Shown here: positions 4,390 to 64,000 of the stretch, piece by piece
Position numbering within the stretch: position 1 is the first letter of the stretch
Layout of the letters: every line of letters begins with the position of its first letter
Assembly (NCBI GenBank): GCA_947462335.1
Contig: OX381707.1
Span: 37,127,618-37,191,617, forward strand
DNA: 64,000 bases
Direction of reading: 5' to 3'
DNA from: Harmothoe impar
Lineage: Eukaryota; Annelida; Polychaeta; Phyllodocida; Polynoidae
The notes under the pieces: model-generated
What the model saw: only the letters and a program-made list of their open reading frames with translations
What the model was told of the DNA's origin: nothing
Database searches by the model: none
Position numbers and translations under genes: made by a program

Positions 4390-4610
4390 TACAAATACCA
4401 CCAGTCACAAGGACAAAGCAGAGTTCATTTTGTCTGTAGAAAGAAAGCTTCAATAATATCCATCCCTCAGGACCCTGTAGCCTCATTTGAACAAATGCCA
4501 TCAAATATGGGGGTGATGCTGCCCTTTGTTGTTGAAACTAACCTGCCATCTACCATGTTCATCTGCAAACAGCAATTGCTGTCATGGTTTTGAGACCAAA
4601 GCTGGTGACA
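4390..4610 (+). repeat. Array block A, copy 1
   Basis: The segment matches 13555-13830 and 25100-25345. All share the order: CCAGTCACA-type start, TTTGTCTG, GAAAGAAA-CTTCAA, CCATCCCTCAGGA, GGCCTCATTTG, then GTTCATCTGCAAAC (the last only in copies 1 and 2). Indels of varied length make it non-coding. Function is unknown. The three copies show an old duplication of at least 10-20 kb. Confidence 0.75.
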
Positions 4611-4769
4611 ATGAATTAATGTGTCTAATGAAATCACTGGGTATCAAATATAAAGCATGAAAATACTGGATTCAAATCTAAAGCTAGATGTCATGCAACT
4701 CCTATCATCTCTTTTCTAGGAGTCATATGTATCAAAACATGCCTAAAAAGAAGAGACCCACTGTTGGTA

Positions 4770-5115
4770 GTCATACTTTCATCAGAACAACAGGAACAAC
4801 ATGATCAGACTTTGTAATAACACAAACGTATTAGACCCCTGCTTGGAGCATCCATTACTGTTTCCACATGGTTTCCCATATTGTATCCAAATGTTGGCTG
4901 CTACTTCTGCCACATAGCTGATGTTTATGGGAATGTCTAACCAAGGCCATGTAGTCCCCATGGACTTGCATCACTGATATATCATGGGGCACACAGGGAG
5001 GGGGAGATATGGTAGGTAGTGCAGAGGGCAGCCTAGGTTAATGGACACAAATTAATAATGTGACCATCTGGGTATCAGATGGAGAGTCAGAAACCCCTTT
5101 TAAGCATAGCACACT
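4770..5115 (+). repeat. Array block B, copy 1
   Basis: Follows block A and matches 15240-15575, and more weakly 25630-25795. Shared landmarks are GAGCATCCATTA, CCATGTAGTC/TCATGTGGTC, TATCATGGG, GGTAGTGCAGAG, GTTAATGGACACA, and the ending GGTATCAGATGG...ACCCCTTTTAA. The A-then-B order is kept in all three copies. Confidence 0.75.
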
Positions 5116-5746
5116 GCAGCAATGTTTGTTGCGTGAGATGAATGCTATAGAGACAAGCACATTTTGACATGTGGATCAACAAGGTAAAACTTACCTCCAT
5201 TAGAGATTTTAGCACCAGTTTTAGTTATACAAACAGGCATGCGACAATAAAACTAAGATTATTCAGGCTACTTTTACTGTAGAATGCAAAAGGCCGTTTT
5301 TCATCTTCTGCCTGCCTGACAGTGCCACCCACAAGAGGCTACCAACATACCACCGTTTACGTACTCTAATAGCTGATACTGATTTGGAGTTCATTTGGCC
5401 AAGATTGATACACTACACTCTGACAGTTGATGTTCAATGTTGAACCAAAATATAACTTCTGGCGAGGTTGGCTGAGGCCTTATCACCCACACATTGGGGT
5501 AGCTTAACCAAGAGTGAACCACGTACCTTGAGATGTTTACCTCAATTATGTAGTCATCCATGCATGATAAGCCCTCTTATTGTGTATCACAGTACATTTA
5601 AGTGTTACTCTTTCCAGCAAAGGACAATAATTATTAGAGACAATACCATACATGATTGGCTACATAAAATATTGACCTGCAAATGCATTACCGGTATCAT
5701 TATCGGTGGACACAGTGGAAAACTACGTATTGGAATAGTGAAATAC

Positions 5747-5824
5747 GTATTGAGCGCACAACTTGTCCTGAGGTATTGAGCGTACAAATTGTCCTGAAGT
5801 ATTGAGTGTACAACTTGTTCTGAT
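5747..5824 (+). repeat. 26-bp minisatellite, 3 copies
   Basis: Three head-to-tail 26-bp units start GTATTGAG and continue CGCACAACTTGTCCTGAG with one to three changes each. The repeats also make open frames on both strands, which are not genes. Confidence 0.9.
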
Positions 5825-5829
5825 ATTTC

Positions 5830-6540
5830 CATTGCAGTGCTAAAGTGATATTGGTTGTCCTCTGAGCTGAGAGATTGATACAACTTCTTAAAGGTAATCG
5901 ACATGTATATGTGTCAAAATCCCATAATAATCATTTTGGTTTACAAAAAGCAATATTGAGATATATAATATTAAAATTAGATAATCTATTTAAACAAACT
6001 TAGAGCAATATAGTTCATGAAACAGAAATGCCCTTTGCTCATGAAGATCTATTAGAATATACCGATCACTGATTGATAATGCAATATGGCCTTATTTACC
6101 CTATACAAGGTTGTCGGAGAGAACAAAGGAATTCACACCTTGGGTGTATTGCATACACTAGTGGTAGACGTTACATAAAATCCTCATGAGCAGGGTAAGT
6201 AATTACAAGCATGGTAGAGTACTGTCTGGCAGCGCTGAGCAGTCTCTCAAAGCTATATATTATTATTGCTCACTTGAACGTTATATATAAGATATGTAGG
6301 TCAACACATGAGAAGGTACCTTCGGGGGGAGTAACAACAGTTTACTCATGTTCGAAATATGATTCCCAAAAAACTACCAGGAGTATCAGTTCTTCTCTTA
6401 TTTTTTGGAAAGACAAGATCTCCTATGCTTTAGCATTGGAAGGCCGTATTCACTGCCCCCCCCCCATTGAATACAATGTGCCCGTATTAAATGGGATAAG
6501 AAAATTCGTCTTTCCTTCATTAAATGGCTTCAAATGAAAA
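5830..6540. other. Unassigned DNA with a poly-C run
   Basis: No gene recognised. A run of about 12 C lies near 6459-6470, and short AT-rich palindromes occur around 6270-6290. Confidence 0.4.
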
Positions 6541-6546
6541 AAATAA

Positions 6547-6752
6547 ATGCAAATGCCAACTACATTGATACCTCTCTGATGTATTTCACTCGTGGGGGCT
6601 GTGGCTTCATGGGATACTGCCCCAGCCCCCACTCGTGAAATACAACAGAGATAGTATCGATGGGCATTGGCATTTGTTTATTCATCATATCTCATTTTAA
6701 AGATCATGACACAAACTTTTACCATCAATTCCCTTTTCATGTGCCTGGTCAC
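6547..6752 (-). mobile_element. Foldback segment of a GTGACC-ended element
   Basis: Two arms of about 55 bp (6547-6603 and roughly 6626-6688) are inverted copies at about 85% by eye, sharing TATTTCAC, GTGGGGGCTG and AAATGCCAA. Adjoining sequence to 6752, read on the minus strand, begins GTGACCAGGCACATG and is related to the elements at 9291, 12027 and 34532. The left terminus of the whole element was not located. Confidence 0.6.
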
Positions 6753-10840: not shown

Positions 10841-10972
10841 ATGGTAGAATATGTTGTGTATTCCTGTGTCTTGGTAAGCAGCTCGTTCTATGTGACTGGT
10901 AAACCGCAGATCAGCAATGGGGGATCTCATTTTGACAGTTCAGTTAATGTTCTGTATTGTTATTCTTGGTGA
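10841..10972 (+). CDS. Candidate small ORF in block E, copy 1 (43 codons)
   Basis: An ATG-started frame of 43 codons has a hydrophobic first 20 residues (MVEYVVYSCV...) and a polar rest, ending TGG TGA TAG. From residue 17 it lines up in frame with open frames at 19297-19497 and 23012-23197: (Y/C)VTG, PQ, S-H, and a final C-S-W or Q-S-L before the stop. Indels relative to copy 2 in the aligned part are multiples of three. Against coding: this copy has no clear upstream homology and substitutions are mostly amino-acid changing. It may be a fast-evolving secreted peptide or exon, or chance. Confidence 0.25.
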   Translation: MVEYVVYSCVLVSSSFYVTGKPQISNGGSHFDSSVNVLYCYSW

Positions 10973-11475
10973 TAGTAATCATAGTCAGATCGTGCATGGT
11001 GGCCAGTATGATTGAGTAGTGAAATAAAATAGATCTAATAAGACGCCAAATTAGATGACATTAATAATGGGTCTGCTATAATTCACTTACCCAAGGTAAC
11101 AGTATAGGAAAATGATGGATTTGATAACGGGGAAATACATTCCTAAATAATATGTGGTCAAATACAGACAAAGCATGGCGATCAACAAAACAACAAACCC
11201 TATAGTCCAACCCCCCCCCCCAACACACACACAAGATGGTAGCACTGTTAAACGGTCTTACTCAGTTGTGCCACACTTTAAGTACTGTAAGTGAGCAGCT
11301 CAGAAACTGCATCCTACCCTAAAGGCCCCATCTACACCGACAGGACCCACAAAACAAAGGACACTTAATTGGGCTGCTGAACATGTGTGGATATCGCATG
11401 ACTCGAGCTACGAGTAATTGGAGACACTGGGCTCAGCCTCCGGGGGTGCTGTCATCTCTCCACTGATGCCACCTA
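10870..11475 (+). repeat. Array block E, copy 1
   Basis: TATGTGACTGGTA...ATTCTTGGT (10892-10971) and the later AGTAATTGGAGACA...CCTCCGGGG (11413-11445) match block E at 19385-19497 and 19575-19605. The stretch between contains an extra insertion, including a poly-C/CA run near 11211-11232. Confidence 0.6.
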
Positions 11476-11479
11476 CCAC

Positions 11480-12025
11480 CGTAATGTGACATGACTCCCA
11501 CAGGGCATAGACTGCAGGCAGGAAAAAATCACTGCATTGTCATTCTTCTGTCCGTGGGAATGTTGTTTTCATTGTCAGTGATTCACAGCTGGTACAAAAA
11601 CGTCCCCAAGGTTTTTTCAGCTACTAGGGATGGAATCGGCGGTGTTTTCTAATTAGGCATATCCTTTTCTTCATGAGGTTGTAAGGAACACTAGTTTGGA
11701 AGCTTCCAGCAACATTTAAGGTACATTATCCAGTCAGCCTAATGGCCTCATGTGGCTCTGTCGACAAACAAAGCTTAATTCAGACTCTAAGCTCATTTCC
11801 TGAAGTGTTCCCAACCTAAAATGACCTGACAGTATCCATGCTTCTACCAAAATATTTTTGGTCATCTAATGACGTGTACACAGTATATGCATGACCTCTT
11901 TGAATTTTTTGGATTATGGGTGCTACTTGTAAATCTGCCTTTTGAATAATTCTTTATCAAGTGAAATGTATTTGCGGGAAATTCATCACCCCACTCAAAC
12001 AGTGACTAAGATGTTTAATAATAAT
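11480..12025. other. Diverged array DNA, possible G-like remnant
   Basis: CCAGTCAGCCTAATGGCCTC (11731-11750) echoes the end of blocks G1-G3 (CAGTCAGCATT...AATGGCCTC). Otherwise nothing is recognised. Confidence 0.3.
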
Positions 12026-12539: not shown

Positions 12540-13550
12540 TGGACTAGAAGGAGAGCAAACTTGATGGAGAAATGTCAGTAAAGTGCCTAATATGTTGAGG
12601 TGAAAAAATAATCAAGATCACTTCACTGCAGAGTGTGCATCCAATGAGCCAATTATTTGTAGTACTTTAAGCAATGTTTTTCAATGCATTATAATCTTTT
12701 TTTCTGAATGTAACTAATCAGAACGTCTCCATATCCTTTGTACTCTTACTCCCTCCTGACCATGTTATCTACAGCCTATTCTAAATACCATGCTGTATCT
12801 GCCATATAGTGCCAACCGCATGGAATGAGCAATACATCTGGCAGATCACCAGAGAATGTATAAAAAGGAATACATTCGAAATGAGAAGGGGGAAAAGAAG
12901 AAAAAAGGGTAGCAAATCCCCATTCCATCTCCACTCCCTCGGGCCCTGGCCTTGTCTGTGACCCTCTACCGTTGGTGCCCTTTCCGGGATGATAGAGTGG
13001 TGACAGGGCATTAAGATTTCATGGCCGGGCACAAAGGGCATGCCCTTTGACGTCCTCGTGGCCCTTCCCTATAGGTAGCAGGAAGCTTGGACAGTGGGAC
13101 ACATGCATTAGTCATGGCACCTAGTCAGATAGTACTGGGGGGATCAGGAAATAAAATGGAAAGGACTTCATTCATGACAAAAGGGGTTGTTATAGTTGTA
13201 TAGGAGTTGTACAACAATAGGTAGGTAACAATAGGCCATATATAACAGTAATTGGTCATAAACTGGCAGAAGAGTGGAGCGCCTGTTGTTTCCTTACACA
13301 GGTATGGCCCTAGGGCTCAAACTATAAATGCTAGGATAAATAAACCATTAACTGTTTAAAAAAAACTTGGAGATCAGGAACAGGATGAAATACCCATGGC
13401 CACCATCTTCATCGCAAGAAAACATGCATCTGTTTTGTTAAATAAAAAATATAGAGAAATCATTCAGTAATATATGACGCACATTTTGGCAGATATGATT
13501 ATAGGATTTGCAACGTTTATTGAAAATATAGCTATATAAGTTGTACCTGA
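12540..13550. other. Unassigned DNA
   Basis: No gene, mobile element or array block was recognised. An 86-codon open frame on the minus strand (12781-13041) lacks homologues among the blocks and any gene-like context. Confidence 0.4.
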
Positions 13551-13554
13551 TCAT

Positions 13555-13830
13555 AGCCATTTTGCGCCCGGTCACAGAAAACAGGACTAACCCCACTTAA
13601 ATGTGTCTGAAGAAAGAAAACTTCAAACAAATCCATCCCCTGGGAGCAGGTGGCCTCATTTGGCCAAAATGATGTTAAAGAGGCTGTAATCTAAAAAAAG
13701 GCCTGTTTGTGCACACATCTGAGCCCTTTGCTGCTGTTTGCTGTGGGGAGATTATTAAAGGGCAGTAAATTGTATCTTCTCATCTTCTATGTTCATCTGC
13801 AAACATAACATCACATACGAAATCGAGACA
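13555..13830 (+). repeat. Array block A, copy 2
   Basis: Best matches block A copy 3 (25100-25345), sharing the extra AAAAAGGCCTGT-type segment and CACACATCTGAG(C/T)CCTTT that copy 1 lacks. This makes copies 2 and 3 sisters. Confidence 0.75.
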
Positions 13831-14154
13831 TAACTATGGCAGTATAAGTTCACATTATCATACATGTATATACAAACTCCTGAGTTATGCAGTTTTGGGG
13901 CTGAGGATGGTCAAACTAGAAAGTTCTTAATATGTTTAAACAAGTTGATTTTATTGAAAGGTATATATCTTGGCTCGTTGGAACACTTTTTGATAATCTC
14001 ATACTCTCAACTTTACACTTTTTTCCTCAAAATGGTTCAATTAGTTCTCAAAATCAATCTACAATATCCTCATCATATATACTTCAATATATATGGACCA
14101 TTAAGACCATTGGTTGAACCTACTACGCACTGTACTGGCCTAATGTATGGCCAG

Positions 14155-14720
14155 ATCACTGATTTTGCATCTCGGAATCACCCATATGATTCACTCATGA
14201 AATTATACATAAAGTTCTCCCATCACTAGCAAACTCCAAACAACCTCTTTAAACTATCTCTACATGTACTAAACATGTGTCCTGGGTATATTTTACAACA
14301 CTTGCTCCCTTTTTATTATGTGCACCTTCTAATATAAACCCAGATTCTGAATTTCCATCTCGGAATCACCCGTATCAAGCTGCTGGACATAAAGTTCTCC
14401 CATCACAACCAAACTCCACCCAACCTCCCCAAACTATCTCTGCATTAACATAACATGTGTACGCTGAGTCCTGGGTATAGAACTATTACGGGTATAAATT
14501 TCCTTTATTTTTCTAACTTTCTTGACATTATGCACCCAGATACAAAAATAATATCATCATAGCAGCACTCTTATACCTGTATGGCATAAGGTTAACATGT
14601 CTTCTATCAGTTTAAACAGTAACAAAGGCAACCATATATTCCACATTCGCATGATATCCCTTCTAATATGTATCACATTTCAGGAATTTCCATCTCAGAA
14701 TCACTGGGTGGCTGTTACTG
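14155..14720 (+). repeat. Local direct duplication, two full copies and a stub
   Basis: 14155-14300 and 14345-14480 share TCTCGGAATCACCC, ACATAAAGTTCTCCCATCAC, CAAACTCCA and AACTATCTCT...GTCCTGGGTATA. A third partial copy at about 14683-14710 keeps AATTTCCATCTCAGAATCAC. Copies 1 and 2 are about 185 bp apart. The long open frame through 13864-14229 ends inside this repeat and does not reappear in copy 2. Confidence 0.8.
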
Positions 14721-14729
14721 CCTCAGTAT

Positions 14730-15235
14730 ACATGGGAGACATGTAAAACATGTAATTTTTAGCTTTTTTTTCACGCTTTTATTTATTTTTTGGCCTTTGG
14801 AGGGCCAGAAATGAAAATAAATTGGGCCAATACACAAAAAAAGAAACTCCTGGAAGTTTAGGATGTTTTCTCATATTATACCCAAAATTTGAAAAAAATT
14901 GTGCAAAGGTTGCTATTCTGTAGGGGTATAAGCCTGAAAAGGGACAGAAATCGCCAAAACAACATAGGCCTAAGTCGGGAGTTTGTGCCATGTAATGGGT
15001 TCATGGTGGTTTGCTCCTTTACTGCTGAAGATACTTTCAAAATGTATTAAGCAAATGCATGGAAACTACTTTTAGTATAAAATGTCTTTATAGATCAACA
15101 TGTTAGCATACAAAGACTTTCGCGATATAAATTGGATAACATTGTGTTTGTGGACATAAATATAGATATCAAGTAGCTCTGGAAAATGACGTATTTCTAT
15201 AATCAATCTATGTAAAGCAGGAAGATTCTCAATGT
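14730..15235. other. Unassigned DNA
   Basis: No supported feature. T-rich with poly-A/T runs. Confidence 0.4.
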
Positions 15236-15239
15236 GTCT

Positions 15240-15575
15240 TCCCTCTTGTTCATACTGAGGATATTACCGAAACAACAGAACTAACAGACACGGGTTAGTC
15301 CTGCTACCACGAGCATCCATTAATTATGGTTCTCCCATGGTTCCCATGTCCCCAGCCAAATATCTGCTAGCTGCTGCCGGTACCATGTGACTAATGTTCA
15401 AGGTTGATTAAGGTCATGTGGTCTCCCTGTACGTGCAGTACTGATATCTATCATGGGATATCAGGACAGAGGTCTGATAGGTAGTGCAGAGCACAGCCAA
15501 GGTTAATGGACACAGATTAAGCTGGCCATCTGACTGTCAGATGGAAAGTCGTAACCCCTTTTAACCAAAGGACTT
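15240..15575 (+). repeat. Array block B, copy 2
   Basis: Full-length match to block B copy 1, ending in the same GTTAATGGACACAGATTAA...ATCTG(A/G)...CAGATGG...ACCCCTTTTAA. A short inverted pair GATATC...GATATC surrounds TATCATGG here. Confidence 0.75.
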
Positions 15576-15579
15576 CTCA

Positions 15580-16220
15580 AAGAATGCTTATTCGGCGGTA
15601 TAAATGTTTGCACACACAGGAACTATGTGACATAGTGAAAGTAGCAGTTTTAAGCTATTTAGAAGGAGGTTAAAGCCACAAAATGAAATAATGTATTAGT
15701 AATTTGCTGCATTTATAATTGATTAGCAATGGAATGAGCATGGGTGTCAAGGTCTCTAGTTGTACTTGAAAGGCTGCTGTAATACATTTAAGGGGGGGGG
15801 GGGGAGTAGATTACTTGGTAAATATTTTAATAGGTCGTAATTATACCGTTATACATTGTTTATCTATTATGTTTGTTGATATCACAAGTTAACAAGTGAT
15901 AATGTTGTCATAACAGGTTTTTATTCAATCCTCATGTATACCAACAGGGTTCGTTATTTGTACTGCCGTTATGGATTCGATTAAGCATTAAAATACCGAT
16001 GTTAAGTCGTTATCCATCGTGTTTATTATGTACACTCAAGTTTTCAGGCACGTAACTACCGACCACTACCATCTAACTATCATTCAGATAATAATTACAG
16101 GGATATTTCTCAACTTAATTGTATAAAAAATGTACAAAAACTCCCTCACTCTATGTAACAGGTGTAGGGGGAGTAGCTATTTTCTTTAACTCTGTGCTCT
16201 ACTATCATGACTCGTCAACC
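15580..16220. other. Unassigned DNA with a poly-G run
   Basis: A run of about 14 G lies at 15793-15806. The rest carries no recognised feature. Confidence 0.4.
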
Positions 16221-16224
16221 ACTC

Positions 16225-17080
16225 ACAACCCTATATATGTATGAACCCTTAGTATTACACAGGCAGTCTTTGTCCATTATTATATAGATGACTGATTGTA
16301 GGATTGTCACCCCACTGCAACACCACAATCACTCCCTACAGATAACACAGCCCAAAGTGTGTGTGTGGGAGAGGGGGGGAGGGGAGATGGGGGGTTAGGG
16401 CTAGGGAAGCAGCTGCTGAGGTATGTAAAAGGGTGATGCATGTGCCTCCTGATCTCAAGCATTCATTAGATGCTCCTGTGCAACAACATGGGTATGATAT
16501 GATTATAATTATCATGCTCTTTAATTATCATGCTCTGTAGTTCATGCCTCAATTAAATATGATACCCTACACTGCAATAAGTAAATGTAGCTGCGAATCT
16601 ACAAAAAATCTATAGTATATGCTATGATATTAGTGTACATAGCCAATAAATCTACTATTGGTTTACAGTATTAAAGGATGCTTTTGGGGTTAAGCATTAT
16701 ATGTAGTCATTCATAGAACTGTTAAATCAGTAAATACCCTGAGAGAAAGTACCAATTTTGATAGATATATGCCATTGGATCCAGATGTGCTTTCAATATC
16801 ATGGTTCCCAAATGGTTATCGCCTTAGAAATGAGATCACATGAGGATGACCAATTTCCTGCGTTGCACCTTAGTCAAGGGATTAATCTGTCTTTTCTCTT
16901 CTCCACATTACATCAGAGAGGTTTGTGTATAACACCAATAATCACTAGCTTGAGCAGCCACCTGCGTCAATTGCATATCTGCTGTAGGTAAGGACATAGT
17001 GGGAAGGGACCAAAAGGATGACAACCTACAGACTGGTAGAGCAAAACCACTTAACACATCTTCTCACTTCTAATCTGTTT
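16225..17080 (+). repeat. Array block C, copy 2 (with G-quadruplex-like tract)
   Basis: Strong match to 21020-21950 and partial matches to 26850-27000 and 28195-28500. Shared order: CTTAGTATTACACAGGCAGTC, GTCCATTATTATATAGATGACTG, CACCCCACTGCA, CAATCACTCCCTACAGATAACACAGCC, a G-rich tract, CATTCATTAGATG, ATGGTTCCCA(A/G)ATGGT, and GGTAAGGA-ATA. A GATA-type AGATAACA is kept in copies 2-4. The G-rich tract 16370-16408 has at least four runs of three or more G. Confidence 0.85.
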
Positions 17081-17375
17081 CGGAAATTGAATTGCACTTG
17101 GTTGACCAGGGATGTAATCTCTATATCATGGTACTGAGAAGTTGGATATATATAATCGGCAATCTCCTGGATTAAGTCGCTATTCAGAGGGCCAGAATGA
17201 TTAAGTCGCTATGGCCAGACAACTAAATATGGGAAGGCACAGGTTAGGAGGAAAAAATCGATTGTGTAGGAGGAAAACGGAAGGGGCTGCCATAGCGACC
17301 TAATCCGTTTGGGGTGCCCAATAGTGACCTAATCTGTTTGGGGTGCCCAATAGCGACCTTATCTGTAGGGGGTGC

Positions 17376-18769: not shown

Positions 18770-19130
18770 ATATTGCATTCCTTGTCTCTATAGTAGTAGG
18801 AATTTTGGTTATAACCAGCAGCTTGTGCTCATAGTGTGATGGCCCTTTGCCTACAGTGACCACATGGTGCTGAGGAATGCCCTCTCAATAAATCAGAAAA
18901 TTTGGCATCATGGCTCATTAGGAGTACTATTCCTCTCTCTGGTTAAAGGACAAGCCACTATAGAAAAAGAAACCTCCTCCCCAAATTGCTATGCGATGGA
19001 ACAAACATAGTTGAATCAACAGCAACCACTTTTAATGGAAATTAATGTGTGCAATAACAGATCCTGGGATTTCTTATTCTAGCACAGCAATCCTGAAATG
19101 TTAAAAATTCTTCTTTCATTTCATGATGTT
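18770..19130 (+). repeat. Array block D/G, copy 2
   Basis: Matches 22495-22850 closely: GGTTATAACCAG, CACATGGTG(C/A)TGAGGAAT, CCCTCTCAATAAATCAGAAAAT, GGACAA(G/T)CC. Its second half (GATGGAACAAAC...TTTTAATGG...TTCTTAT-CTAGCACAGCAATCC) is more distantly related to G1-G3 at 27.7, 39.6 and 46.4 kb, linking the two halves of the window into one family. Confidence 0.75.
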
Positions 19131-19279
19131 AATTTTGGTTCTAGTCTGAGAATTTGTTTTCAGAACTAAACTTTTGAAGTCAAGTATTCACTTGGGACTA
19201 AACATCTTACCCTTTGTTTATTTATAATGCTCCTTGATTGGACATTAACCAAATTCAGTGTTTCATGTGTTCATGAGCA

Positions 19280-19660
19280 GAGGATCCCAGGAGTGAGCAG
19301 TTAGTGCGGCTGTGTTAAGCAGAACAAAGGTTAATAGAGGCAGTGAGCTGCATGGTGGCTATTTCCTACTCTGGTTGGCGAGCAGCCTGTTTTGTGTGAC
19401 TGGTACACCACAAGCCAACAGGGAATCCCATGTTGACATGCAAGTGAGCATTCATATCAAGACCAGGCTGTTTCTACATTGTCAGTCTTGGTTATAGCCA
19501 TATCTACCATATATCATCGCTATATCATGGTATGCTGTATATGATTATGTGGATATTGAGCGGCTCTAGCTAGAAGTAATTGGAGATGCCATGATCATCC
19601 TCCGGGAATTCCCTTATCCCTCTACTAGTCAGCGCCTCAGACTACCATCGGTCGGAACAT
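19280..19660 (+). repeat. Array block E, copy 2
   Basis: Matches 22975-23260 and 10870-11475. Begins AGAGGATCCCA(G/C)GAGT(G/A)AGCAGTTAGT and ends TCAGTCTTGGTTATAGCC, followed by AGTAATTGGAGA. Contains the candidate reading frame described separately. Confidence 0.8.
19297..19497 (+). CDS. Candidate small ORF/exon in block E, copy 2
   Basis: Open from 19297 to TAG at 19497, with no in-frame ATG until late, so it would have to be a spliced exon. It holds a hydrophobic stretch GYFLLWLASSLFCVTG followed by a polar segment. Length and stop are identical to the frame at 23012-23197. The nucleotide alignment contains a one-base loss and a one-base gain that cancel. Downstream of VTG only about 2 of 16 changed codons are synonymous, which does not support purifying selection on protein. 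Confidence 0.2.
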   Translation, partial: AVSAAVLSRTKVNRGSELHGGYFLLWLASSLFCVTGTPQANRESHVDMQVSIHIKTRLFLHCQSWL

Positions 19661-19844
19661 GGGCCTAAGTTCCTAATTTTGATATCCATCTGTTCTGATA
19701 TAACTGCATATTTGCAAAATGATCCCTGCACACTTTGTACTATATCAGCAGAATAGGCCACAATGAGGTAAATTATTCCTCATGACTTCAGCCATTGCTG
19801 TATGCGAAGGTATAAGATAAGAGCACAAGTTCTATGATTCATAT

Positions 19845-20870: not shown

Positions 20871-21019
20871 AAGAGCGGAAGGTGTCATTGAAATGCCTTA
20901 AAATCGTAATGTAATTGCAAAATATAACCTGCTGTATAAAGAAATTTTGGATATAGGGGGAGTACCTCTTTGATTTAGACATTTGCTCTGCCACTGCATC
21001 TGCCATCATGGCACTGCAG

Positions 21020-46415: not shown

Positions 46416-46419
46416 GACG

Positions 46420-46800
46420 TCTGGTTTGATGGCATATCTTCAAACAGGTAATAATACTTACTTCCCACCTCTTCACCCCTCTTGGTCTTAGCACTGTTCC
46501 CCTTAGGAGACTTCCATCGATGGGAATGGAAGCAGCTGAGTCAGAAATAACACCACCTAATTAAGGATTTTAATAGGGATTAATTCAATATAAAAACAGG
46601 TGGCATGGTTTCTTATCCCAACACTCCAGCTGCCTCCCAGCCAGCATTGCTTTAAATGGACCTCATCTAGATGGGGTGCCAGATGAGACCTACAATTGTT
46701 TTGATGAAGGCTACCCAAGTGGGATCCATTTGGGTATGACTATAATAATATTATTTGAAGTGCCCAGATCCGGCCAATGGCAAACCCAAGTTGACACAAT
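46420..46800 (+). repeat. Array block G, copy 3
   Basis: Matches G1 best. It keeps CCTAATTAAGGATTTTAATA + GGGATTAATTCA and TTCTTATCCCAACAC. An 89-codon frame begins in its tail (46676) but is closed in G1 and G2. Confidence 0.82.
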
Positions 46801-52165: not shown

Positions 52166-52589
52166 CTTTGATTAAAGCGATACTAGGGGCAGTTATAGGG
52201 CCATGTAACATGGGAAGCCTGGTGTACCTTCTGAACTTTTTTGATCGCTTTCGGTAGTGGGTAAGCATAAGGCTATGAGCAGGCATACAATTATAATAAA
52301 GTTTTTCTACTCTGACATAAATAGTGACATTTTATGGTAAAATTAGGAACTTCTTGAAGGCTTCATCACTTGGATCTAAGTAATGATTACTGCCTAGTTA
52401 CTGTATTTGTCGTGGTTCCTGGCCATTATCTAACGCGATAAGAATAACAAAGATCTTATTTCATAAAGTGAAGAGTTCCTACTCAAATGCACTGGGAGGG
52501 GTGACGTGTTGTGAGATACTTAAACAGGTGGTCCTAACATACTGACAACACCAAGCATACGAGTTACTTACTATCAAGATGCACACAGG

Positions 52590-52990
52590 CCATTTACAAT
52601 ACTATAATATGGAACTTTTCAGAGGGTATCTGTATAGACGGTTCCAGCCTACTAGTAGTATGCAGTATACATGTTTGTAAGTGTGTCCATTGGGCAGTCA
52701 GGGTGACCAGGCAGTTTACATGTGAATGACAAGCCCTAATAGGCAGGGACCAGGGAATAATTGGCTTGCTACCAGGAATTACTCTCCAGGGGAAGATGTA
52801 CGGAAATGGACGGCATGTTTAGCAGGCTCTCTGTATGAGTCAGGATTTACTATTCATGCTCTTTTATATCTTTTATTATGCTATCAGAGATTACGCATTA
52901 TTCATATACTGTGATTCTTCATCTATTTCGGGTTAATTGGGGCTGTTCCTAGTCATTAGTGGTAGTTAATATGAATAATGATGTCAGTCG
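52590..52990 (+). repeat. Array block T, copy 1
   Basis: Matches 60990-61335: GTATCTGTAT, CGGTTCCAG, CAGTCAGGGTGACCA, GTTTACATG, CCTAATAGGCAGGGACCAGG, GCTACCAGGAATTAC, ATGCTCTTTTAT, CAGAGATTAC(G/A)CATTATTCATA. The middle 90 bp is about 85-90% identical by eye. Confidence 0.88.
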
Positions 52991-53059
52991 GATTCACTAG
53001 ATATGCTTAGGGCTTTAACAAAACAATGAACAGGTTTGTAGAGGATTGTATACAGTACA

Positions 53060-53430
53060 CATCTACAGATTGAGATGTGTACACATGGTACACTCAAACT
53101 GACAAAGTTTCATCTAAGCATCATTCTATATATGGATTGGGACAAATTAATCAATCAAATACTAAATTATAATTGCCAGTTATTTACTTTTTTAACTTAA
53201 CCTATCTATGGTCATCTCGAATAGGGGTTATGTAAGGCCATCTCTAACACTTTCATCCATCATCAAGGTACACATTCCAGATTCCTTTGATGGAAATAAT
53301 TATCTCTCTTAGTAGGAGGTCTGTGGGAGGTGACCTGAGCATCAAGATCATTGGTATGAGGGTAGCCCTGGTGTCACAGTTTGATCCAAAACAAGCTGGA
53401 TGCTGATTGGCTGGTAGAAAATAGAGTAGG
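53060..53430 (+). repeat. Array block U, copy 1 (NF-Y-like site)
   Basis: Matches 57890-58270 and 61400-61690: GGAGGTCTGTGGG(A/C)G, TGACCT, CTGGTGTCACAG-TTGATCC, GGATGCTGATTGGCTGGT. CTGATTGGCT is a reverse CCAAT (NF-Y consensus CCAATCAG), present in all three copies. Confidence 0.85.
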
Positions 53431-53439
53431 AATAGAGAA

Positions 53440-54160
53440 GTAATGTAGGGTTTTATTTTTTGTCATAGGCAAGAATAAAGAATAAGAACACCAGGCAATA
53501 GCTAAGGGCAGTGAGAAATCTGAATCTCAATTATTAGAGGTACACCAAGAAAAGGAACAGAGTCAAAAGGGAGTCCAGGCCTACCTCAAGAACAACACTC
53601 TTTTCTGACTCTCTTTCTCACTCTCTTGATGAAAGGAGTCAGTATTTGACTTCTTTAAAAGGGAGTTATGTGACTCGCCTAAGAAAGCCCTCCAAAATGA
53701 ATCCCTTTTATGGCCCCAAGGCACAAGGACTCCAAATGTAAAGGGAGCCATTAAACCACGACTACCTTTGTTGAGAGGGTCATTGAAGGATGGCTCCAAT
53801 GGAATAGGGAGTCACATTGGTAATTTCAATTCCCTTCTCCTATATTATATATAAGCATTCCAATAGCTGTCTTCCTGGTTCATCTTTCTACATCACATTG
53901 GTTCAAGGTGTCAGAAGGAGGAGGGGTCTCAGAAAGATCCCTCAGTGCCCATTAGTTAATTATGTGAAGGAACATCTGAATTTATGTGGATTTGACTTTC
54001 TCATGTTTCCACAAATTTGATGTCTATACCTAAAACAATGTTTTTAAAACCCAGACATGATGAACTAAAGAGATATGGTGTAAACCATATTTGAGAAGGT
54101 GAAAAATATGATTAAAATCTGTACATGATTGAAAAGTGATGCAAACTATAACAAACGCCA
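53440..54160. other. Unassigned DNA between U and V
   Basis: No partner in unit 3 and no gene. CT/GA-rich stretches near 53590-53640. Confidence 0.4.
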
Positions 54161-54169
54161 ATAATAGTC

Positions 54170-54690
54170 TTTACCTTTGATAATTAATAGCAGAGGCTGC
54201 ATATCATCAGATTGACGCCAAAAATCTACAACCTACTCAATTTGGTACTCGCAGCATCATAAGCCATGAGCACTGAAGACTGCTTAGAAACTTCTGGCAT
54301 TTAGTGGCAGCTAATATTGCTCCAAATTCATTCTAGAGGGAAGGAAAAATACAGAAGCACAGATGCAATCATGCCATTTTAAGCAATACTTTCTACTCTT
54401 TGAGCGTGGTCCTTTGTGTTCAGTGGATGCATGGGTTCTGCTCCTTTCAGAGACAGGCTGTGAAATGCAATCTTTCTACTACTTCCAAAGCAGTTAGCCC
54501 CTACTAGTTTCAGTTTTAGCTCGCAAACAAAAGGCCTCTGCAGTAGAACACAGGGCTGATGGTTCTTCATGATTTTCCATTTCCCTCTCCAGATCCAATG
54601 CTATTCAGAGAAGCACGCTGCCAGATTGGAGGACAATCAATCACCAGCTTAAAGGGGAGAGGTCTTGTCTAAATAGGGAACAAAGAAAAG
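54170..54690 (+). repeat. Array block V, copy 1
   Basis: Matches 62100-62650: TTTTAGCTCGCAAACAAAAG + GCCT, GTAGAA-ACAG-GCTGA, TTTTCCATTTCCC, AATGCTATTCAGAGAAGCAC, TTGGAGGACAATCAATCACC + AGC, AATAGGGAACAAAG. A pyrimidine tract ending CTCCAG|A (54593) looks like a 3' splice site and is kept in copy 2. Confidence 0.88.
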
Positions 54691-55004
54691 TAATACTGAT
54701 GTCAAAATCGTCTAAATAGCACTCCAACTAGATCTTTCCAATACATCTTTCAGCCATTTCAAGATTCCTCATAAATTCCTGATAGAACTACATGTACCAT
54801 TAATTTACTATTGAAAGTGATTCTTTTACATGATTAAATATGAGCAGCTATAACCAGAGACCCAGGGCAAAAAATAGGTATAGGCAATAGTTATGCAGAA
54901 TCAACTAACAATATATATAATTATACACCAATATTTGCATTATCTTTTCAAGAGCTCTGCCATTTAGTCTGGGATATAACTGATGCAGGGTTATTTACTA
55001 GAAA

Positions 55005-56190
55005 ATAGAACTTGGCGAACTCACCAACCAACATACTCATGTACACTGTATCACTCTCACTCTCCCTATAGTAAATCATAGCAGGCAGTGTGCTCAATCA
55101 CCCCTGTATATTAGTATAATTTATGTACTATGAACAAATGAACTGACGAATTAATCTCCCAACAATACCCTGCAGCATATCCAGTTAAACATGATTCAGC
55201 CATATCCATTTAACACACATAGTACAGACACCACTCCTTCAGTCTCCCCTCCTGCAGCCATATATAACCCTTCACCATTGAATTCCTGGTAACTCAATGT
55301 TATTTGTGTGTACATCATGCCTTACTTTGTGAAGGGGTTAATGGAGGTTTCTTTGGTACATTCAATAGCCAACACAAACATGATTTTCCTTACAGATCCT
55401 CTGTGCTGGCAGTTTTTGAAATATAGGCAACTTGCTCACCTGGCACCAAGTATTGCATTAACCTTAATGAAATATTTAGTCACGAGCCAATTATTGTCAT
55501 CCTATCCTCAGGCACACCTTGTAATAACAATCCATGTGCCAATTTGATAACATCAGGCATTGATTGGTGACATGTGGAACATACCAGAAACAAGAAGATG
55601 GCTTCTTAGACATTTGTACCAAGCTGCATTATTGTTCAAGTCACTGATATACTGTTTTGGGAATTTCAGAAGATTTATGTTGCATAGGTTCACACAGCTA
55701 TTAACAATATCTTCTATCTATTAGAGTCAGCCGTAGTTAGATACATTGGCCCCATTGCAATGAATACATTTCACACAAAACTATGAATTATCATTATGAT
55801 CACTAACACCTCCTTCACGCTGGCTTACATTACAGTTATTGAGCCCCTATAACCCATTTATTGCTGACCATCCTAATGATTCTTACTGGTTACAACTCAA
55901 GGATCCAGTTTTTGGCTTGAGGGAAATAGTGGGGTATTTGGACCAAACAGGGGAATACAGATCAGGATAAAATTAATAAGCCTCCTTGTTTCTTATTCCT
56001 GTGAGTGATATGTACAATCTTGAATCCTTTGTAACATATCCACTCAAGGGCCATCGGTACCTTACTATTGCCATCCACTGTGAGATTCCTATCTCAGATG
56101 ATACATTAGCATCTCTGTAGACTTATATTTCCTTCTTACACATCAGGTTATATAGGGACACCTGGATAAGAGAGGCAGGGATATTTTCAT
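55005..56190 (+). repeat. Array block W, copy 1
   Basis: Collinear with 62865-64000: TAGTAAA-C, CCAGTCT/TCAGTCTCC, CACCTGGCACCAAGT, ATTGTCATCCTATCCTCA, GCCAATTTGATAACATCA, TTATGTTGCATAGGTTCA, AACAATATC/TGCCCTCTATCTAT, ATGATCACTAACAC, CATCCACTGTGAGAT, GATAAGAGAGG. Reading frames on it are shifted between copies, so not coding. Confidence 0.88.
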
Positions 56191-56194
56191 CTCA

Positions 56195-57335
56195 TTCATG
56201 TCAACCCCTCCTACAATCTTCCTTGCAACCTCTCTGGCTCAGTGGCTCAGTCGCCTAGAAACCTAGGTCTGTATCCCGTATAAATCTACTAGCACTAGAA
56301 AACAAATCATCCTTCTTTACAGTCTCTAGGGTAGCCTACATCTACCCCTAACTACCCATGATACCAGATCTTCCCTGGAGAGGAGCTGTAATTATATCAG
56401 GCACACTCTTCCAGTCCCTTACCGCCTCCTCTCCCCATGTCCGTGAAACATCCACATGACTCAACTGTGCCTGAATTGTTTACAATGCCTCCACTAAGTA
56501 GGAGTTGCCAGCAGCCAAAGCTTCTCCATTCACCATACATTACCTATAGAGTACAGTTAACAATGCACTAGCGCTCACATACCTCAATACACCTTAATTA
56601 AATGAACATTGGACAGAATTTACATTGAAAACCCCTAAATGTGCTGACCTCATCAATTATGCTACAGAATCAATCTTTGGACTATGTGTAAATTTAATAT
56701 ATCAAGCAGTATTAGGTTATTTTCACCTACATATCTTCTCCCAAAATACACAAGCTAGTCAGGGCTATGATGTACAGCGTAGACAAACTGGTCATTGCCC
56801 TGTGGCAGACTCAGGAATGACCATGATGATTCTTGGTAGTGACAACCCTGGTCCTCCAGGGGTAATTTGTTTGAATTATACATGCTCCCTGTCACACCAT
56901 CATTTACTCTGGTAGCTGTGGGTGTAAGTTAGTCATTTGTTACCTTTACCTGCATATCTATCTCCTCAATTAGCTCACACAAACTCTTGATAATCATTAA
57001 GGGATCACATCCAACATTTACTTTGTTGAGCAACATAAGAGATGACTGGGTATTACCTGACAGCATAATTCTGCATAAACTGCTGCCATCAGATGCCACT
57101 GATTTTCAAGAGTGACCTATCATGTTTTCATCAATAATTTATTCAGGAACAGTTTTATAATAAAACGTTGTCATGCAACAATTAGATTTAATGTTATGAG
57201 TGCTTCTATCAGTCAAAAATAATGGAAAAGAGTAAGGCATTGCCCATACCATGCCCATATCCATGTCCATGACTCATACAGAACATACTCTGCCTTCCTC
57301 TCACAGTGACCATTTCCTGCAGCCTTAACCTAATA
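56195..57335. other. Unassigned DNA
   Basis: No block partner and no gene recognised. A 96-codon frame at 56625-56915 is unremarkable and has no support. Confidence 0.4.
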
Positions 57336-59084: not shown

Positions 59085-60235
59085 TCAATTAATAGCAGTT
59101 TGAGCCTTCATAATATCACAGAGGTGAACAGGGAAGAAGACTGAAAACATGACCTCAGACAGGCCTTGACAGTATATCGTTTCAATAATAACATAGCTGT
59201 GTCTTCAATTGCTAAAACCTTGCTATAGCATTGCAATGATACATATGTAAAACCTCGGATTTACATTAGGATTATCCACAACTGCCATCGCTTCGCTTAT
59301 CTAGTCGAAGGCTCAGATACATCAACCTTACATAACTTGGCATTTTCTGCCCGAATCATGGCGTATCAGAATAAGTAATATTCTACTTCTCCAATCCTCA
59401 GGTCACCCTTCACTTGGTACTTCATGTAGTCCTTGCCCCCACCACAAAACTCCCATGTCTCCCTGCCCACACGCATGATCCTAATCCCTTGACAACCGAA
59501 GTGTCTAGTGTTGGGCTGTGGGAATGGTTATGGTATAAGGACTAGGCAGTGGATTAGGCTTTCTTGTGCTGGGATTAAGGAAACTTGGCCCTCTAGGACA
59601 TGATAATCCCCAGACGACAGGGATTGATGTTGGTTCTCCAGCCTCCATGTAGACCTTTTTAGTGCTTCTAAGGCTGGAGTACCAGTAGCTCCAAGTTTAT
59701 ACTTGTCTAACATCCTAAAGATAGCAATCAACCTGGAAAGACATCTCTCCCGGTTTAGAAAAAAAAACTGTACTCAAATTAAGCAATAAGAGAAAATGAC
59801 AGAATTTGAGAAGCTACATTTATGACAACATTGACATATCATTATTCATAGGGTATGCTTACCTTCAGCGAAATTGATTAGGTCATATATGGGAGAGATA
59901 TGGGGCACGGTATCATTCAAGGTGTACCAGAAATAGCAATGTCGTATTGATTCGACCATCTTAAATTCATTCAGAAACCCATGAATAACATTGTAGAATG
60001 ATATGGCTAATGTGAGGCATACATTTGCCATCAGGTCATTTATTTTTTATTCACACTGCACCTAAGTTTCTAGATTATCTTAGATATATCTAAGGCAAAG
60101 GCAAAATGTTCATAACTTGTACCATCCAATGGAATTGCATTCTAGTCTGAGGCAATCATGGGTGTTCGGAACCATACGTTGGGCTGATATAAGGTGGTTT
60201 ATGAGAATTTTTATTGGAGGTGGATCAAGAAAGGT
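59085..60235. other. Unassigned DNA
   Basis: No supported gene or block. Small minus-strand frames near 59.5-60.0 kb have no support. Confidence 0.4.
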
Positions 60236-60352: not shown

Positions 60353-60989
60353 ATTACGCAAAAGGCTCAGGCCAACACTGCATACAGCACTTGTCCAAGG
60401 TACAACACCACGGTAGTAGTAGTAGGCAACTTCTTGCAGGTATCTTCCCTAGGATGTAGGTCATGCAAGATTGCTGCCTAGACAGGAAGAAAACATACAG
60501 CACTACATGTATAGGTTGGACAGGTCGTAGCTAAATATGCATATTGAATCATTGCTCACCATGATGAGCACCAACAAGCCTTTTGCAAGTTGTCATTACT
60601 CCAAAAACTAAACATAATCTCATAACATAGAGCTAGATATTTTCAAGTTGCTACTCAAATTCAAATTCTCAAATCCAATCCTCCTCAAGTGTAAAAATGC
60701 AATTCCTCCTTCTGCTCTGATCAACGATTAATGAAGTTGTCGCTAGTGTTAGCCTATTTGTGACATCTCCTCTGATTACCTCTGAAACTGGATGCCTTAT
60801 TGTTTAGCTCTGCATTTAAAATTAAAGATGGCGACTCTTCAGATTTGAATTGTTTTCGGGACTATTGCCTGTCATGAATGCTTACACGGCTGGCCCTAAG
60901 ATGGATGATGACACCTGTATAAAGGCTTCAAATTACTTGCTATCAAGGTATCAACAAAGCCACTTACAGCACTAGAGTTTGATCTCTCG

Positions 60990-61335
60990 GATTTCTCAGA
61001 GTGTATCTGTATTTATATATAAACGGTTCCAGTATTGTGTGGGAGAGTGGCCATGCGATAGTCAGGGTGACCAAGCTGTTTACATGGGACTGACAAGTCC
61101 TAATAGGCAGGGACCAGGGGACGATTGGCTGGCTACCAGGAATTACCCTCCAGTGGTATATTAACGGAAATCAATGGCATGTTTACCGGGCTGTCTGTTG
61201 GAGTAAGCATTTACATTTCATGCTCTTTTATTCCTGCCAGAGATTACACATTATTCATACCCTTTGCATGGTTCTTCATCAATTTCGGGTTATTTTTGAG
61301 GGTATCTTTGGTCATTTGTGGTAGTAAAAAATAAT
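60990..61335 (+). repeat. Array block T, copy 2
   Basis: Pair of 52590-52990; landmarks are listed there. Confidence 0.88.
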
Positions 61336-61399
61336 AGCGGTTCCTCCCAATTTCACAATATACAATCGTGAATACAATCCTAAATTAACATTGTCCAGT

Positions 61400-61690
61400 A
61401 ATCAACCTTTTAACCTGCTCTGGTCATAGTCATTATAGATAGAGGTGGGGTTATGTATACGACCACCTCTACAATGTATAACCACTTCTTCCAGCTGCCA
61501 CCAGAGTAGAGATCCTTGTTCACAGTAATGGACAGGTCTCTCATGGTAGGATGTCCATGGGCAGTGTCCTTAGCCTTAGGGTCATTGACCGGAGGCTAGC
61601 TCTGGTGTCACAGTTTCATCCTTGGCTGGTGCAGGCGCAATATGGATGCTGATTGGCTGGTGACCAGTCTGACAAAATGTAGTTGGGAAA
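61400..61690 (+). repeat. Array block U, copy 3 (NF-Y-like site)
   Basis: CTGGTCATAG-CATTATAGAT, CCATGGGCAGTGTCCTTAG, CTCTGGTGTCACAGTTTCATCC, GGATGCTGATTGGCTGGTGA. The CCAAT-type core is intact. Confidence 0.82.
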
Positions 61691-61798
61691 ATGATAGAAT
61701 AAAGGGTATTATAGTCTATAAAATGTCAGATTCCAATTGAAAATAAAAAAATCGAGCAGTAGTTAATGATCTTGTTTAGGTTCATCATTGCAGCTACT

Positions 61799-61850
61799 AA
61801 GCGTTCTTCTGAAAGGTCCATACATGTATGACCCTTTCAGAAGAACGCTT
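61799..61850. repeat. 52-bp near-perfect palindrome
   Basis: AAGCGTTCTTCTGAAAGG on the left pairs with CCTTTCAGAAGAACGCTT on the right, and the centre CATACATGTATG is itself palindromic. 24 of 26 base pairs match with no spacer. It is absent from the paralogous position after U1, so it is a recent insertion or a newly formed palindrome. Confidence 0.92.
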
Positions 61851-62099
61851 TCCCACAACATTTCCCTCAAATAAATGATTAATGCCAGCAAAGCGCACAT
61901 ACTCAGCTAAGGCACTATGCAAGACGATTTAAAGTCAATTTCTTTGGCCTTAGACATTGGAATAACAATGACGGTTTCTTCTTGGCTGATGCGGTTATTT
62001 TGCGGCATGAGTGTAAACATCAGGTATCAGTTCCAGTTTGAATGACCACACTGAACAATTGACATATCTCATGCTTTTCTGATGGAAAGGTCCTAATAT

Positions 62100-62650
62100 C
62101 TATATCAGTTGAAGAGACCAAACAATATTAAATTGAGGTCTAATGCTTTAAATCTACAATTCTCCTCAATTTGGTTCTCGCAGTACTATAGGTCATGCTT
62201 AAAAACATCTAGGCTTTATTGGGAGCTAAACCCATATTGCTCTAAACTCTTTCAAGGAAAAAGGACATTTGAAGAAGCACAGATCTATATAGTCATGCCA
62301 TTTGAGCAATACATTCTACTTTCTACTTGATTGTGGCCATTTTGTGCTCAGCAGAGCAGCTCCGCTCTTTGTTAGAAATGGGCTGTGAAATGCAATCTGC
62401 CTGCTACACTTGAATAGCAGTTAGGCCCAGCTAGTTTTTTCTGTTTTAGCTCGCAAACAAAAGGCCTATGGAGTAGAAAACAGAGCTGAGGGTACTTCAT
62501 TATTTTCCATTTCCCTTTTCAGACTGAATGCTATTCAGAGAAGCACACTGCCAGGTTGGAGGACAATCAATCACCAGCCAACAGGGAGACAGCTCTGGTC
62601 TGAATAGGGAACAAAGGAAAGTAGTACTGATGTCCAAACCATTCAAATAG
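62100..62650 (+). repeat. Array block V, copy 2
   Basis: Pair of 54170-54690, with the splice-acceptor-like CCCTTTTCAG|A at 62522. Confidence 0.88.
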
Positions 62651-62864
62651 TTCTGGCCTACACATCTGTTGGCTGTTTCAAGATTCAAGATGTACATGTA
62701 TACATAATCAGAGACCCTGAGAAAATAATCATTTATAAACAGTTACTACTCACAATCAGCAAATGCATACACCACTCTTTGAGCTATGATATTTAGATAT
62801 TTAGGACATAAGCACTTTATTTACCTTGGTGAAAGTATATAAAAAGCATCCGCACCAGCTGGCA

Positions 62865-64000
62865 TACCAACTTAAACACAGCTTCATGTAGACTGTATCA
62901 TTCTCAGTATATCAGTGTGTAGTAAACCCTCACAACCAGTGTACTCAGCCACCCCGTCTACTATATACTATGGACCCAAGGATAAATCTCCCAACGTTAC
63001 CATTCAGCAGCAACAATGATTTACGAATTTTCATTTATCCTCGGCACCAGCAAAGATAGTTCAAACCCAAGCCCTCCAGTCTGTCCTCCAGCCTTACCCC
63101 TTCAACACTTCACCACTTCGCAAATCCTGTGTTACAGGTTGGAAGTGGTTATCCTTTGTGACCTTTGGTAGATTCGATACCTATAATGTTGAGACGTGTC
63201 TATGCAGATCCTCTCTCCTGGACGCTATTGGAATCTAGGCATCAACCTGGCACCAAGTCTGAATATTAATAGAATATTCAATTATGAACCATTGATTGTC
63301 ATCCTATCCTCATGCGCATCTTGGAATAACATTGCCAATTTGATAACATCAATATGGCTTGTTGACATATTGAACATTCCAGAATGAACAAAATGATTTC
63401 TTAGATATATCCTACCAATATTGCTGGAGTCCTGCACATCATATGAAATCAATTTTTGAAGATTCATGTTGCATAGGTTCAAATAATTATTAACAATGCC
63501 CTCTATCTATCGGTGCCGTTTATAGTTAAAAACAGCAGCTGCACCAAACTGGGGGTATTCTCAGACAAAACCATAGACAATCATAATGATCACTAACACA
63601 CCCCTTCAATCTGGCGAACCTCACAGTTGTTAAACCCCTACACCCCCATCCCACTGCCCATTCTCATGATTGTCTTCTTTTTTACTGCAATTATCTGTTT
63701 TTAAGTTGGAGGAAGGAACAGTGTATGAGGACCAGGAAAGGTAATAGGGATTAGGGATAAATCACCCTATTTTTTCTCAGTCTGTAAATGTTGTGTATTT
63801 TGCGGAATATAATGATGTACACTCTGGCATGCAGTGTAACATCTGTACTCAACGATCATCATTACCTTAACTAGTATTAGCATCCACTGTGAGATCCCCA
63901 TCTGTAATGCAGTGTTGGTATCTCTGCAGACCCCAATTTTCTTACAACACATCATGTTAGGTATCTATCCACGGAAAGATACACATGGATAAGAGAGGTA
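62865..64000 (+). repeat. Array block W, copy 2 (continues beyond the window)
   Basis: Pair of 55005-56190; homology is still strong at the last base (GATAAGAGAGGTA), so the array extends past 64000. Confidence 0.88.

Follow-up and report, generated by a model that had tools for sequence, protein, structure and literature searches.

A tandem array of old non-coding units in Harmothoe impar as a candidate regulatory cluster

The window, a 64,000-nucleotide stretch of the Harmothoe impar genome, contains non-coding DNA that was amplified head to tail, in copies that are old and have kept their block order. The blocks resemble islands; alignment now fails over most of the intervening DNA. The best candidate among the readings offered is a regulatory cluster: tentatively, selection on the DNA sequence itself may have kept the blocks, their most likely role being that of a cluster of cis-regulatory (enhancer-like) elements.

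Organisation of the tandem array

Between positions 4390 and 64000, self-matches comprise 37 same-strand and 4 opposite-strand cases, whereas a single 60 kb control region (C2:50.00-50.06 Mb) gives 6 and 5. Self blastn of the repeat-masked whole window (E<1e-3) yields 48 same-strand and 11 opposite-strand HSPs, and the reversed (not complemented) window sequence, used as blastn control, yields 0. Block families were built by single linkage of same-strand pairs, after removal of pairs <1 kb apart and of 13 manually listed intervals of TEs or simple repeats. Twenty of the 21 families within 4390-64000 occupy 2-4 places each, and the remaining one, a composite, occupies 7. Nine blocks are collinear from 32549-39894 to 40106-46702, and six from 52507-62639 to 60870-71013. 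The strand counts and collinear chains bear out the recurrence of blocks in direct orientation and shared order described in a sequence-only reading, whose lettered families could not be matched one to one with ours. Its links between window parts are likewise recovered by iterated nhmmer: block 27699 matches 18927, 22650, 39634, and 46428 (left-middle), and block 36939 matches 44780 and 60122 (middle-right).

Over 264 kb, pairs spaced 5-20 kb are 132 same-strand vs 12 opposite-strand, in line with the earlier claim of head-to-tail amplification of non-coding units, whereas pairs >100 kb apart are 20 vs 20; the excess is limited to short distances. Twenty collinear chains, each of at least three blocks in direct orientation and common order, average 66-75% identity. 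Same-orientation tandem clusters are consecutive over at least -94 kb to +181 kb (window coordinates, Table 1), and near same-strand pairs are absent within -34.7 to -9.6 kb. For most pairs of zones within the 264 kb, strand bias is absent (e.g. 9 vs 10, 10 vs 11, 9 vs 9). The single ancestral locus proposed earlier is supported in part: weak nhmmer links between its parts suggest that the window may derive from one locus, and the support reaches out to ~110 kb but not to the outer clusters, most zone pairs showing no strand bias. Adjacent clusters without demonstrated common ancestry would also be expected if the region were simply prone to duplicating in tandem.

Table 1 Features of the array in window coordinates.
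Feature	Position	Strand	Copies, identity and pair counts
Left cluster	-100 to -33.5 kb		49 same-strand vs 9 opposite-strand pairs
Window zone	-9.7 to 47 kb		43 same-strand vs 4 opposite-strand pairs
Next zone	47-111 kb		67 same-strand vs 5 opposite-strand pairs
Right zone	111-164 kb		34 same-strand vs 16 opposite-strand pairs
First blocks of unit	4401..5170	+	13579-13806, 15162-15632, 25128-25826; outside window -4447..-3637
Weak copies of later blocks	10869..11724	+	10869-10980 of 19250 block; 11314-11724 matches -9478..-9058 (74.5%)
First blocks, second copy	13529..15633	+	self blastn, family linkage
Block	16165..17150	+	20954-22000 (69.9%)
Partial copies of 16165 block (iterated nhmmer)	26837-27000, 28299-28779, 29538-29711, 7635-7778 (weak), -33038..-32862
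Block chain	18820..20860	+	22521-24778
Copy of 16165-20860	20954..24778	+
Unit	25077..27978	+	first blocks (25077, 25624), part of 16165 block (26846), 27697 block
Left-middle linking block	27697..27978	+	39634-39885, 46428-46692; weaker 18927-19089, 22650-22805
Nine-block collinear unit	32549..39894	+	40106-46702, 71.6% over 3620 aligned columns
Island inside 32549..39894 unit	33018..33339	.	90% vs 40648
Copy of 32549-39894	40106..46703	+
Middle-right linking block	36938..37352	+	44779-45172, 60122-60394
Block	45298..45437	+	48603-48731
Unit	52507..57029	+	60870 to ~64896, past window edge
Further partial copies of 52507..57029 unit	68-71 kb and 81-84 kb
Five-copy block	53151..53442	.	57961, 61376, 69719, 82847; CTGATTGGCT identical in 5/5
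Seven-copy block	59409..59656	+	within 55.8-94.3 kb, 2/7 partial; CATGATAATC identical in five aligned copies
Copy of 52507-56183	60870..63991	+

Confinement to the locus

When three blocks were compared with the whole 1.51 Gb genome, matches fell at this locus only, save for one short dispersed repeat inside one block; such a search is not very sensitive, because one of this kind missed copies that iterated nhmmer finds. For the three blocks tested, this result contradicts the objection, foreseen in the sequence-only reading, that the blocks are dispersed repeats found genome-wide. Dispersed repeats do occur here (the 85-1370 element, 55268-55343, and the L028 element), and the links between distant zones lack strand bias, as expected from such repeats. 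However, the clusters show same-strand bias and kept order, and the control region has 6 matches to the array region with 0 in the main tandem blocks (judged by eye), so that a chance clustering of dispersed repeats is extremely improbable.

Conserved islands and spacers

In global alignment, all 167 blocks reach z>3, among them the 41 with identity <66%, vs 5 of the 39 testable intervals between blocks; z<2 is found for 32 of these intervals, including 7/7 of similar length, in a test that is biased to low similarity since intervals are by definition what blastn missed. Transposon insertion could wipe out interval homology without selection. Conservation within the tandem alignments is patchy, with a median variance ratio of 1.43 and permutation p<0.05 in 33/89, and the contrast with pairs >25 kb apart, where TEs and array blocks are mixed, is modest (median 1.08, p<0.05 in 8/27). 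Cores of 143-207 bp at 95-97% identity lie inside alignments averaging 75-79%, and the long alignment -8984..-7970 shows no patchiness. The islands are CpG-poor (0.19 vs 0.35). CpG poverty could slow island mutation without selection, and gene conversion could create islands. The blocks are probably constrained, and the keeping of their order in old tandem units with no shared gene detected suggests, but does not prove, that they do something.

Search for shared coding sequence

The sequence-only reading held that the units share no protein gene, and none was found by codon-position, protein-only similarity, or Pfam tests. Of 504 ORFs 68-500 aa long, the Pfam scans covered 382, together with two lists of 10 long ORFs; no host gene was recognised among them. 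The coding signals are transposon-like, apart from isolated weak Pfam matches (EGF_integrin 0.002, C_LFY_FLO 0.005, DUF5493 0.0021, and Tail_P2_I 0.0096), which were taken as chance. In a BLOSUM coding test of window pairs, at most 5 of 100 shuffles reached the score in nine strand tests, including a LINE pair on both strands and a stop-free 13-codon stretch at 47495/52066. Over 264 kb (236 pairs, each with 80 columns or more), the same test put 17/472 strand tests above z 3.5. Stops occur in 14 of the 17 flagged rows, and 12 rows come from pairs flagged on both strands; the rows therefore reflect local conservation rather than coding.

The third-codon-position test gave p<0.05 in 19/851 open aligned segments, the best being a LINE pair. 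Protein-only similarity among 4461 ORFs (30 aa or longer) produced 1492 hits, with 25 outside the DNA alignments; by eye, reverse transcriptase or LINE accounts for 22 of the 25, and the other 3 are short matches on opposite strands. Signal-peptide-like ORFs number 9, vs 3 in the control, each in a single pair only (by eye). Conserved splice donors favour no strand (34 vs 27; 10 vs 12 at a stricter cut-off), and conserved acceptors (2 vs 0) are too few to judge strand.

Unit size and head-to-tail order would suit a tandem gene family whose exons are tiny or evolve fast, the units being its introns or flanks; introns of such a family with tiny exons had been suggested earlier. The nine flagged strand tests in the window with their stop-free stretch also speak for it, and ORFs <68 aa and 122/504 longer ones lie outside the three Pfam batches. 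No shared exon emerged from the codon test, protein similarity, Pfam, signal-peptide scan, or splice asymmetry, and the third-position result, the LINE-dominated hits, the stops in flagged rows, and the single-pair signal peptides all count against such a family. We regard it as very unlikely, with a small residual chance of short fast-evolving shared exons.

RNA and motif content

Rfam reports no family at gathering score, ARAGORN finds nothing in the window, and a strict scan gives no C/D-box candidates; by eye, 6/11 weak Rfam matches fall within inverted or simple repeats. Palindromes able to fold on both strands make up the strongest shared hairpins, and some weaker ones (-27 to -37 kcal/mol) recur at corresponding positions inside blocks, e.g. 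138483/115451/126071. Covariation support is absent in two block families folded by alignment. A structured-RNA cluster finds no support in the Rfam search or in the two folded families.

AATAAA is kept in 6/90 cases vs 59/595 for its permuted forms. Among 29 known motifs, 12 are kept above their permuted forms, 11 below, 5 are absent, and 1 lacks any permuted instance. Before any correction, the largest excesses are AGGTCA (18/79 vs 46/409) and CATGTC (16/78 vs 37/328), followed by CAGCTG (15/62 vs 23/166) and CCAAT (62/264 vs 536/2988). The census gives no real support, since 12 motifs go up and 11 down.

Discussion

Several observations favour the regulatory reading: the same-strand bias at 5-20 kb, which the control does not share; the confinement of three blocks to the locus, the internal dispersed repeat aside; the contrast between islands and intervals together with patchy conservation; the lack of shared coding sequence in our tests and of covariation in two families; and the identity in all copies of one family of CTGATTGGCT. 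Copies would arise by unequal crossing-over, unconstrained spacers would then be lost to transposon insertion and drift, and blocks would be retained as enhancer-like elements of a putative target gene outside the sequence analysed. The regulatory reading is weakened because the interval test is biased, the patchiness is modest, and gene conversion or CpG poverty may contribute. A balanced motif census and zones without visible relatedness shift further weight from it to a functionless relic. Such a relic, a duplication-prone region or a graveyard of lost tandem genes decaying by transposon insertion, with the blocks as still unbroken remnants, is somewhat unlikely; it agrees with the short range of the same-strand excess, the several adjoining unrelated-looking clusters, the abundance of transposons, and long unpatchy alignments such as -8984..-7970. 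Against it stand the 32 intervals without similarity, including all seven of similar length, beside alignable blocks, and the highly conserved cores within far more diverged alignments.

Gene-free tandem non-coding units are the usual look of lncRNA or small-RNA clusters in the manner of SNORD116 or C19MC, and the array matches that appearance. Its blocks could then be the exons, promoters, or precursors of tandem lncRNA or small-RNA precursor units, with the recurring weaker hairpins and the promoter-like retention of the NF-Y-like CTGATTGGCT in agreement. We consider a non-coding RNA locus unlikely given the empty Rfam and C/D-box scans, the repeat-borne weak matches, the palindromic hairpins, the missing covariation, the strand-neutral donors, and the low retention of AATAAA; an unstructured lncRNA or small-RNA locus is a candidate.

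Gene families are well known to evolve by birth and death. A wider reading, which we judge quite unlikely as a whole, would see here a region of hundreds of kb without recognised host genes, made of ancient non-coding units whose element order is kept by selection, the regulatory counterpart of tandem gene families with birth-and-death of non-coding units. If true, such a region would belong to a class of locus that usually goes unrecognised. If the blocks are functional, the gene-free array would extend the birth-and-death process to regulatory or RNA units, and constrained bases could be read from its internal copies without a second species. If they are neutral, it would be a useful case of old tandem duplications decaying into apparent islands.

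Comparison with known systems

A literature search limited to abstract openings returned no published description of such an array, which does not imply its absence from print. Tandem clusters of receptor, immune, or secreted-peptide genes share its single orientation, kept order, and short-range similarity, whereas our tests detect no coding exon shared by the units of the array. Macrosatellites, tandem repeats with kilobase units, also have units of several kb placed head to tail; a macrosatellite was rejected for the array since near-identical units are required, and the chains, at only 66-75% average identity, are unequal in length, carry conserved islands, and are not homogenised. The tandem non-coding RNA arrays SNORD116/SNORD115 and C19MC likewise consist of head-to-tail non-coding units, whereas the array, known from sequence alone, has larger units with no snoRNA or miRNA detected. 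Finally, segmental duplications carrying regulatory elements (e.g. PMC13333887) differ from the array, whose copies are old, numerous, and head to tail in one region, and for which no accompanying gene was found; the two are alike in that duplication has multiplied families of similar non-coding elements.

Tandem organization of the region

The assembly holding the window comprises 1.51 Gb in 736 contigs, and the window occupies C4:37,127,618–37,191,617. The masked self-comparison of the window yielded 48 same-strand and 11 opposite-strand HSPs, and the reversed window, used as a control, gave zero. At the threshold used for the 264 kb region (the window with 100 kb on each side), positions 4390–64000 contain 37 same-strand vs 4 opposite-strand pairs, and 20 chains with at least three collinear blocks, with mean identities of 66–75%, are found regionally. 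These results bear out the direct orientation and shared order of repeated blocks described in the sequence-only reading. Across the region, 132 same-strand vs 12 opposite-strand pairs are spaced by 5–20 kb, and 20 vs 20 by more than 100 kb. Same-/opposite-strand pairs number 39/7, 18/1, 37/4, 46/5, and 35/16 in five 60 kb regional slices with some overlap, compared with 6/5 in a control, one 60 kb stretch of another chromosome. The region very probably consists of old, tandemly amplified non-coding DNA that is larger in scale than the window, without any shared gene found.

Consecutive same-orientation clusters extend at least over C4:37,033,187–37,309,056, between −94 and +181 kb in window coordinates. 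Relatives of the right-edge block are located at 37,272,067 and, beyond the 264 kb region, at 37,308,667, the latter borne out by a 4 kb fragment taken there. Inter-zone pairs are mostly balanced (same/opposite: left-window 9/10, left-right 9/9, window-right 10/11, left-next 3/3), with 6/3 for window-next and 5/2 for next-right, and the zone count of the 264 kb region found no near same-strand pair at −34.7 to −9.6 kb. Because of these mostly balanced counts and the empty stretch, common descent appears supported only for the window to ~110 kb. The proposed single ancestral locus is thus retained for this part, in which the linking blocks include 36939/44780/60122 and 22248/32855/40472/57257/66317, and is not extended to the outer clusters. 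The four adjacent tandem clusters between −100 and +164 kb share orientation and show little visible mutual relation.

The genome-wide search covered three blocks with limited sensitivity, as query 54222–56183 missed locally found copies, for example 70536. Queries 32549–33368 and L028:7026–7960 (L-numbers denote pieces of the 264 kb region) match this locus alone, as does 54222–56183 apart from 28 listed places elsewhere, all matching an inner 75-bp repeat. Genome-wide dispersal, the alternative to a local array, therefore applies to this inner repeat and not to the three blocks, although given the limited sensitivity distant relatives may exist outside the locus.

Zones and other features of the region and assembly
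Feature	Position	Observation
Left cluster	−100 to −33.5 kb	49 same-strand, 9 opposite-strand pairs
Window zone	−9.7 to 47 kb	43 same-strand, 4 opposite-strand pairs
Next zone	47–111 kb	67 same-strand, 5 opposite-strand pairs
Right zone	111–164 kb	34 same-strand, 16 opposite-strand pairs
75-bp dispersed repeat	window 55268–55343	77–86% identity to the 28 listed places
Non-LTR retrotransposon remains	window 29857–31083, 27211–27552 (−), 49041–49609	RVT_1 at 29857–30183; related fragments at the other two intervals
Presumed Crypton-like transposon	L025:3313–5089	ORF 4229–5089 with DUF3504 and phage-integrase-type domains
Near-perfect palindromic hairpins	window 6572–6652; ~+131685	also elsewhere in region; resemble folded-back repeats
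Left-end dispersed element	window 85–1370	GTAACCTCCGCCACTTTTAC in both orientations
Dispersed element, ~620 bp	L028:8044–8664	inverted ends; 93–99% identical copies on many contigs among matches listed (40 scored of 4529 first-look candidates)
Dense minisatellite cluster	window 17292–18666	periods 29, 73, 49, 138, 29; inverted copy at 17395/17566
Second COX1 match	G000:C466:6571–7902	perhaps contaminant, symbiont or parasite

Coding potential

No shared coding exon was found by the third-position test, protein-level similarity, or Pfam scans of two ten-ORF lists of long ORFs and 382 of 504 ORFs of 68–500 aa (batches of 104, 138, and 140). Outside these batches were ORFs below 68 aa, most of L009, L016, and L017, and parts of L018, L019, L023, and L025–L028, from which one long-ORF list included a few. 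In the alignments, 851 segments have an open frame in each of the two copies; 19 of them (2.2%) show third-position excess (p<0.05), and the best score belongs to a reverse-transcriptase pair. The 4461 ORFs with 30 aa or more gave 1492 protein-level matches, of which DNA alignment leaves 25 unexplained: 22 judged by eye as reverse transcriptase/LINE and three short opposite-strand matches. Pfam returned reverse transcriptases, one DUF3504/integrase protein, and four isolated weak matches. The earlier statement that the units have no protein gene in common agrees with these data.

Conserved islands and their possible roles

Global alignment gave z>3 in 167/167 aligned pairs of 100–1500 columns lying no more than 25 kb apart, a set that includes some TE pairs. 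Among the 99 intervals between successive chain blocks, 39 had testable length; five pass the same test and 32 have z<2, among them all seven length-matched within ~18%, a comparison biased toward constraint because intervals are by construction what blastn missed. Within alignments, 33/89 tandem pairs show patchier identity than expected, and the median variance ratio of the tandem pairs is 1.43; for a mixed set of pairs more than 25 kb apart, the corresponding values are 8/27 and 1.08. Among the top islands, those of 143, 174, and 207 bp reach 96.5%, 96%, and 95% identity, respectively, in host alignments averaging 75–79%. The interval test would support block constraint, short of proof, and a cis-regulatory role is the likeliest single reading of the islands, tentative as it is. 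CTGATTGGCT, which we take to resemble an NF-Y site, is identical in 5/5 copies of the 53151 family, and CATGATAATC across five aligned copies of the 59409 family. A census of 29 motifs against their permuted forms (12 kept more often, 11 less often, five absent, one without control) is balanced and gives no real support.

That the islands are a functionless relic ranks second and is rather unlikely; transposon insertion would produce the identical interval pattern, and the low CpG of islands (0.19 vs 0.35, with G+C 46% vs 39%) may itself slow sequence change. An RNA locus ranks third, less likely still. The strongest hairpins common to aligned copies are palindromic repeats, and weaker ones also lie inside blocks. 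Rfam gave zero matches in the window at the gathering score, and covariation support is absent in the two multi-copy families folded (terms −0.32 and +4.52, the latter counting against structure). Conserved donor sites are alike on the two strands (34/103 vs 27/99; 10/42 vs 12/49 at the stricter cut-off).

Dispersed repeats and mitochondrial sequences

The exact 20-mer GTAACCTCCGCCACTTTTAC occurs 157 times forward and 136 times reverse genome-wide, often grouped at similar spacing among the places listed. Contig C736 (15,367 bp, mitochondrial) carries a COX1 with internal TGA codons, which differs from the match on contig C466. Read with the invertebrate mitochondrial code, its ORFs are presumably nad3, nad2, cox1, cox2, and the beginning of cox3, in succession on one strand with a short cox2–cox3 gap. 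The host is therefore probably an annelid, as this succession is the annelid mitochondrial ground pattern.
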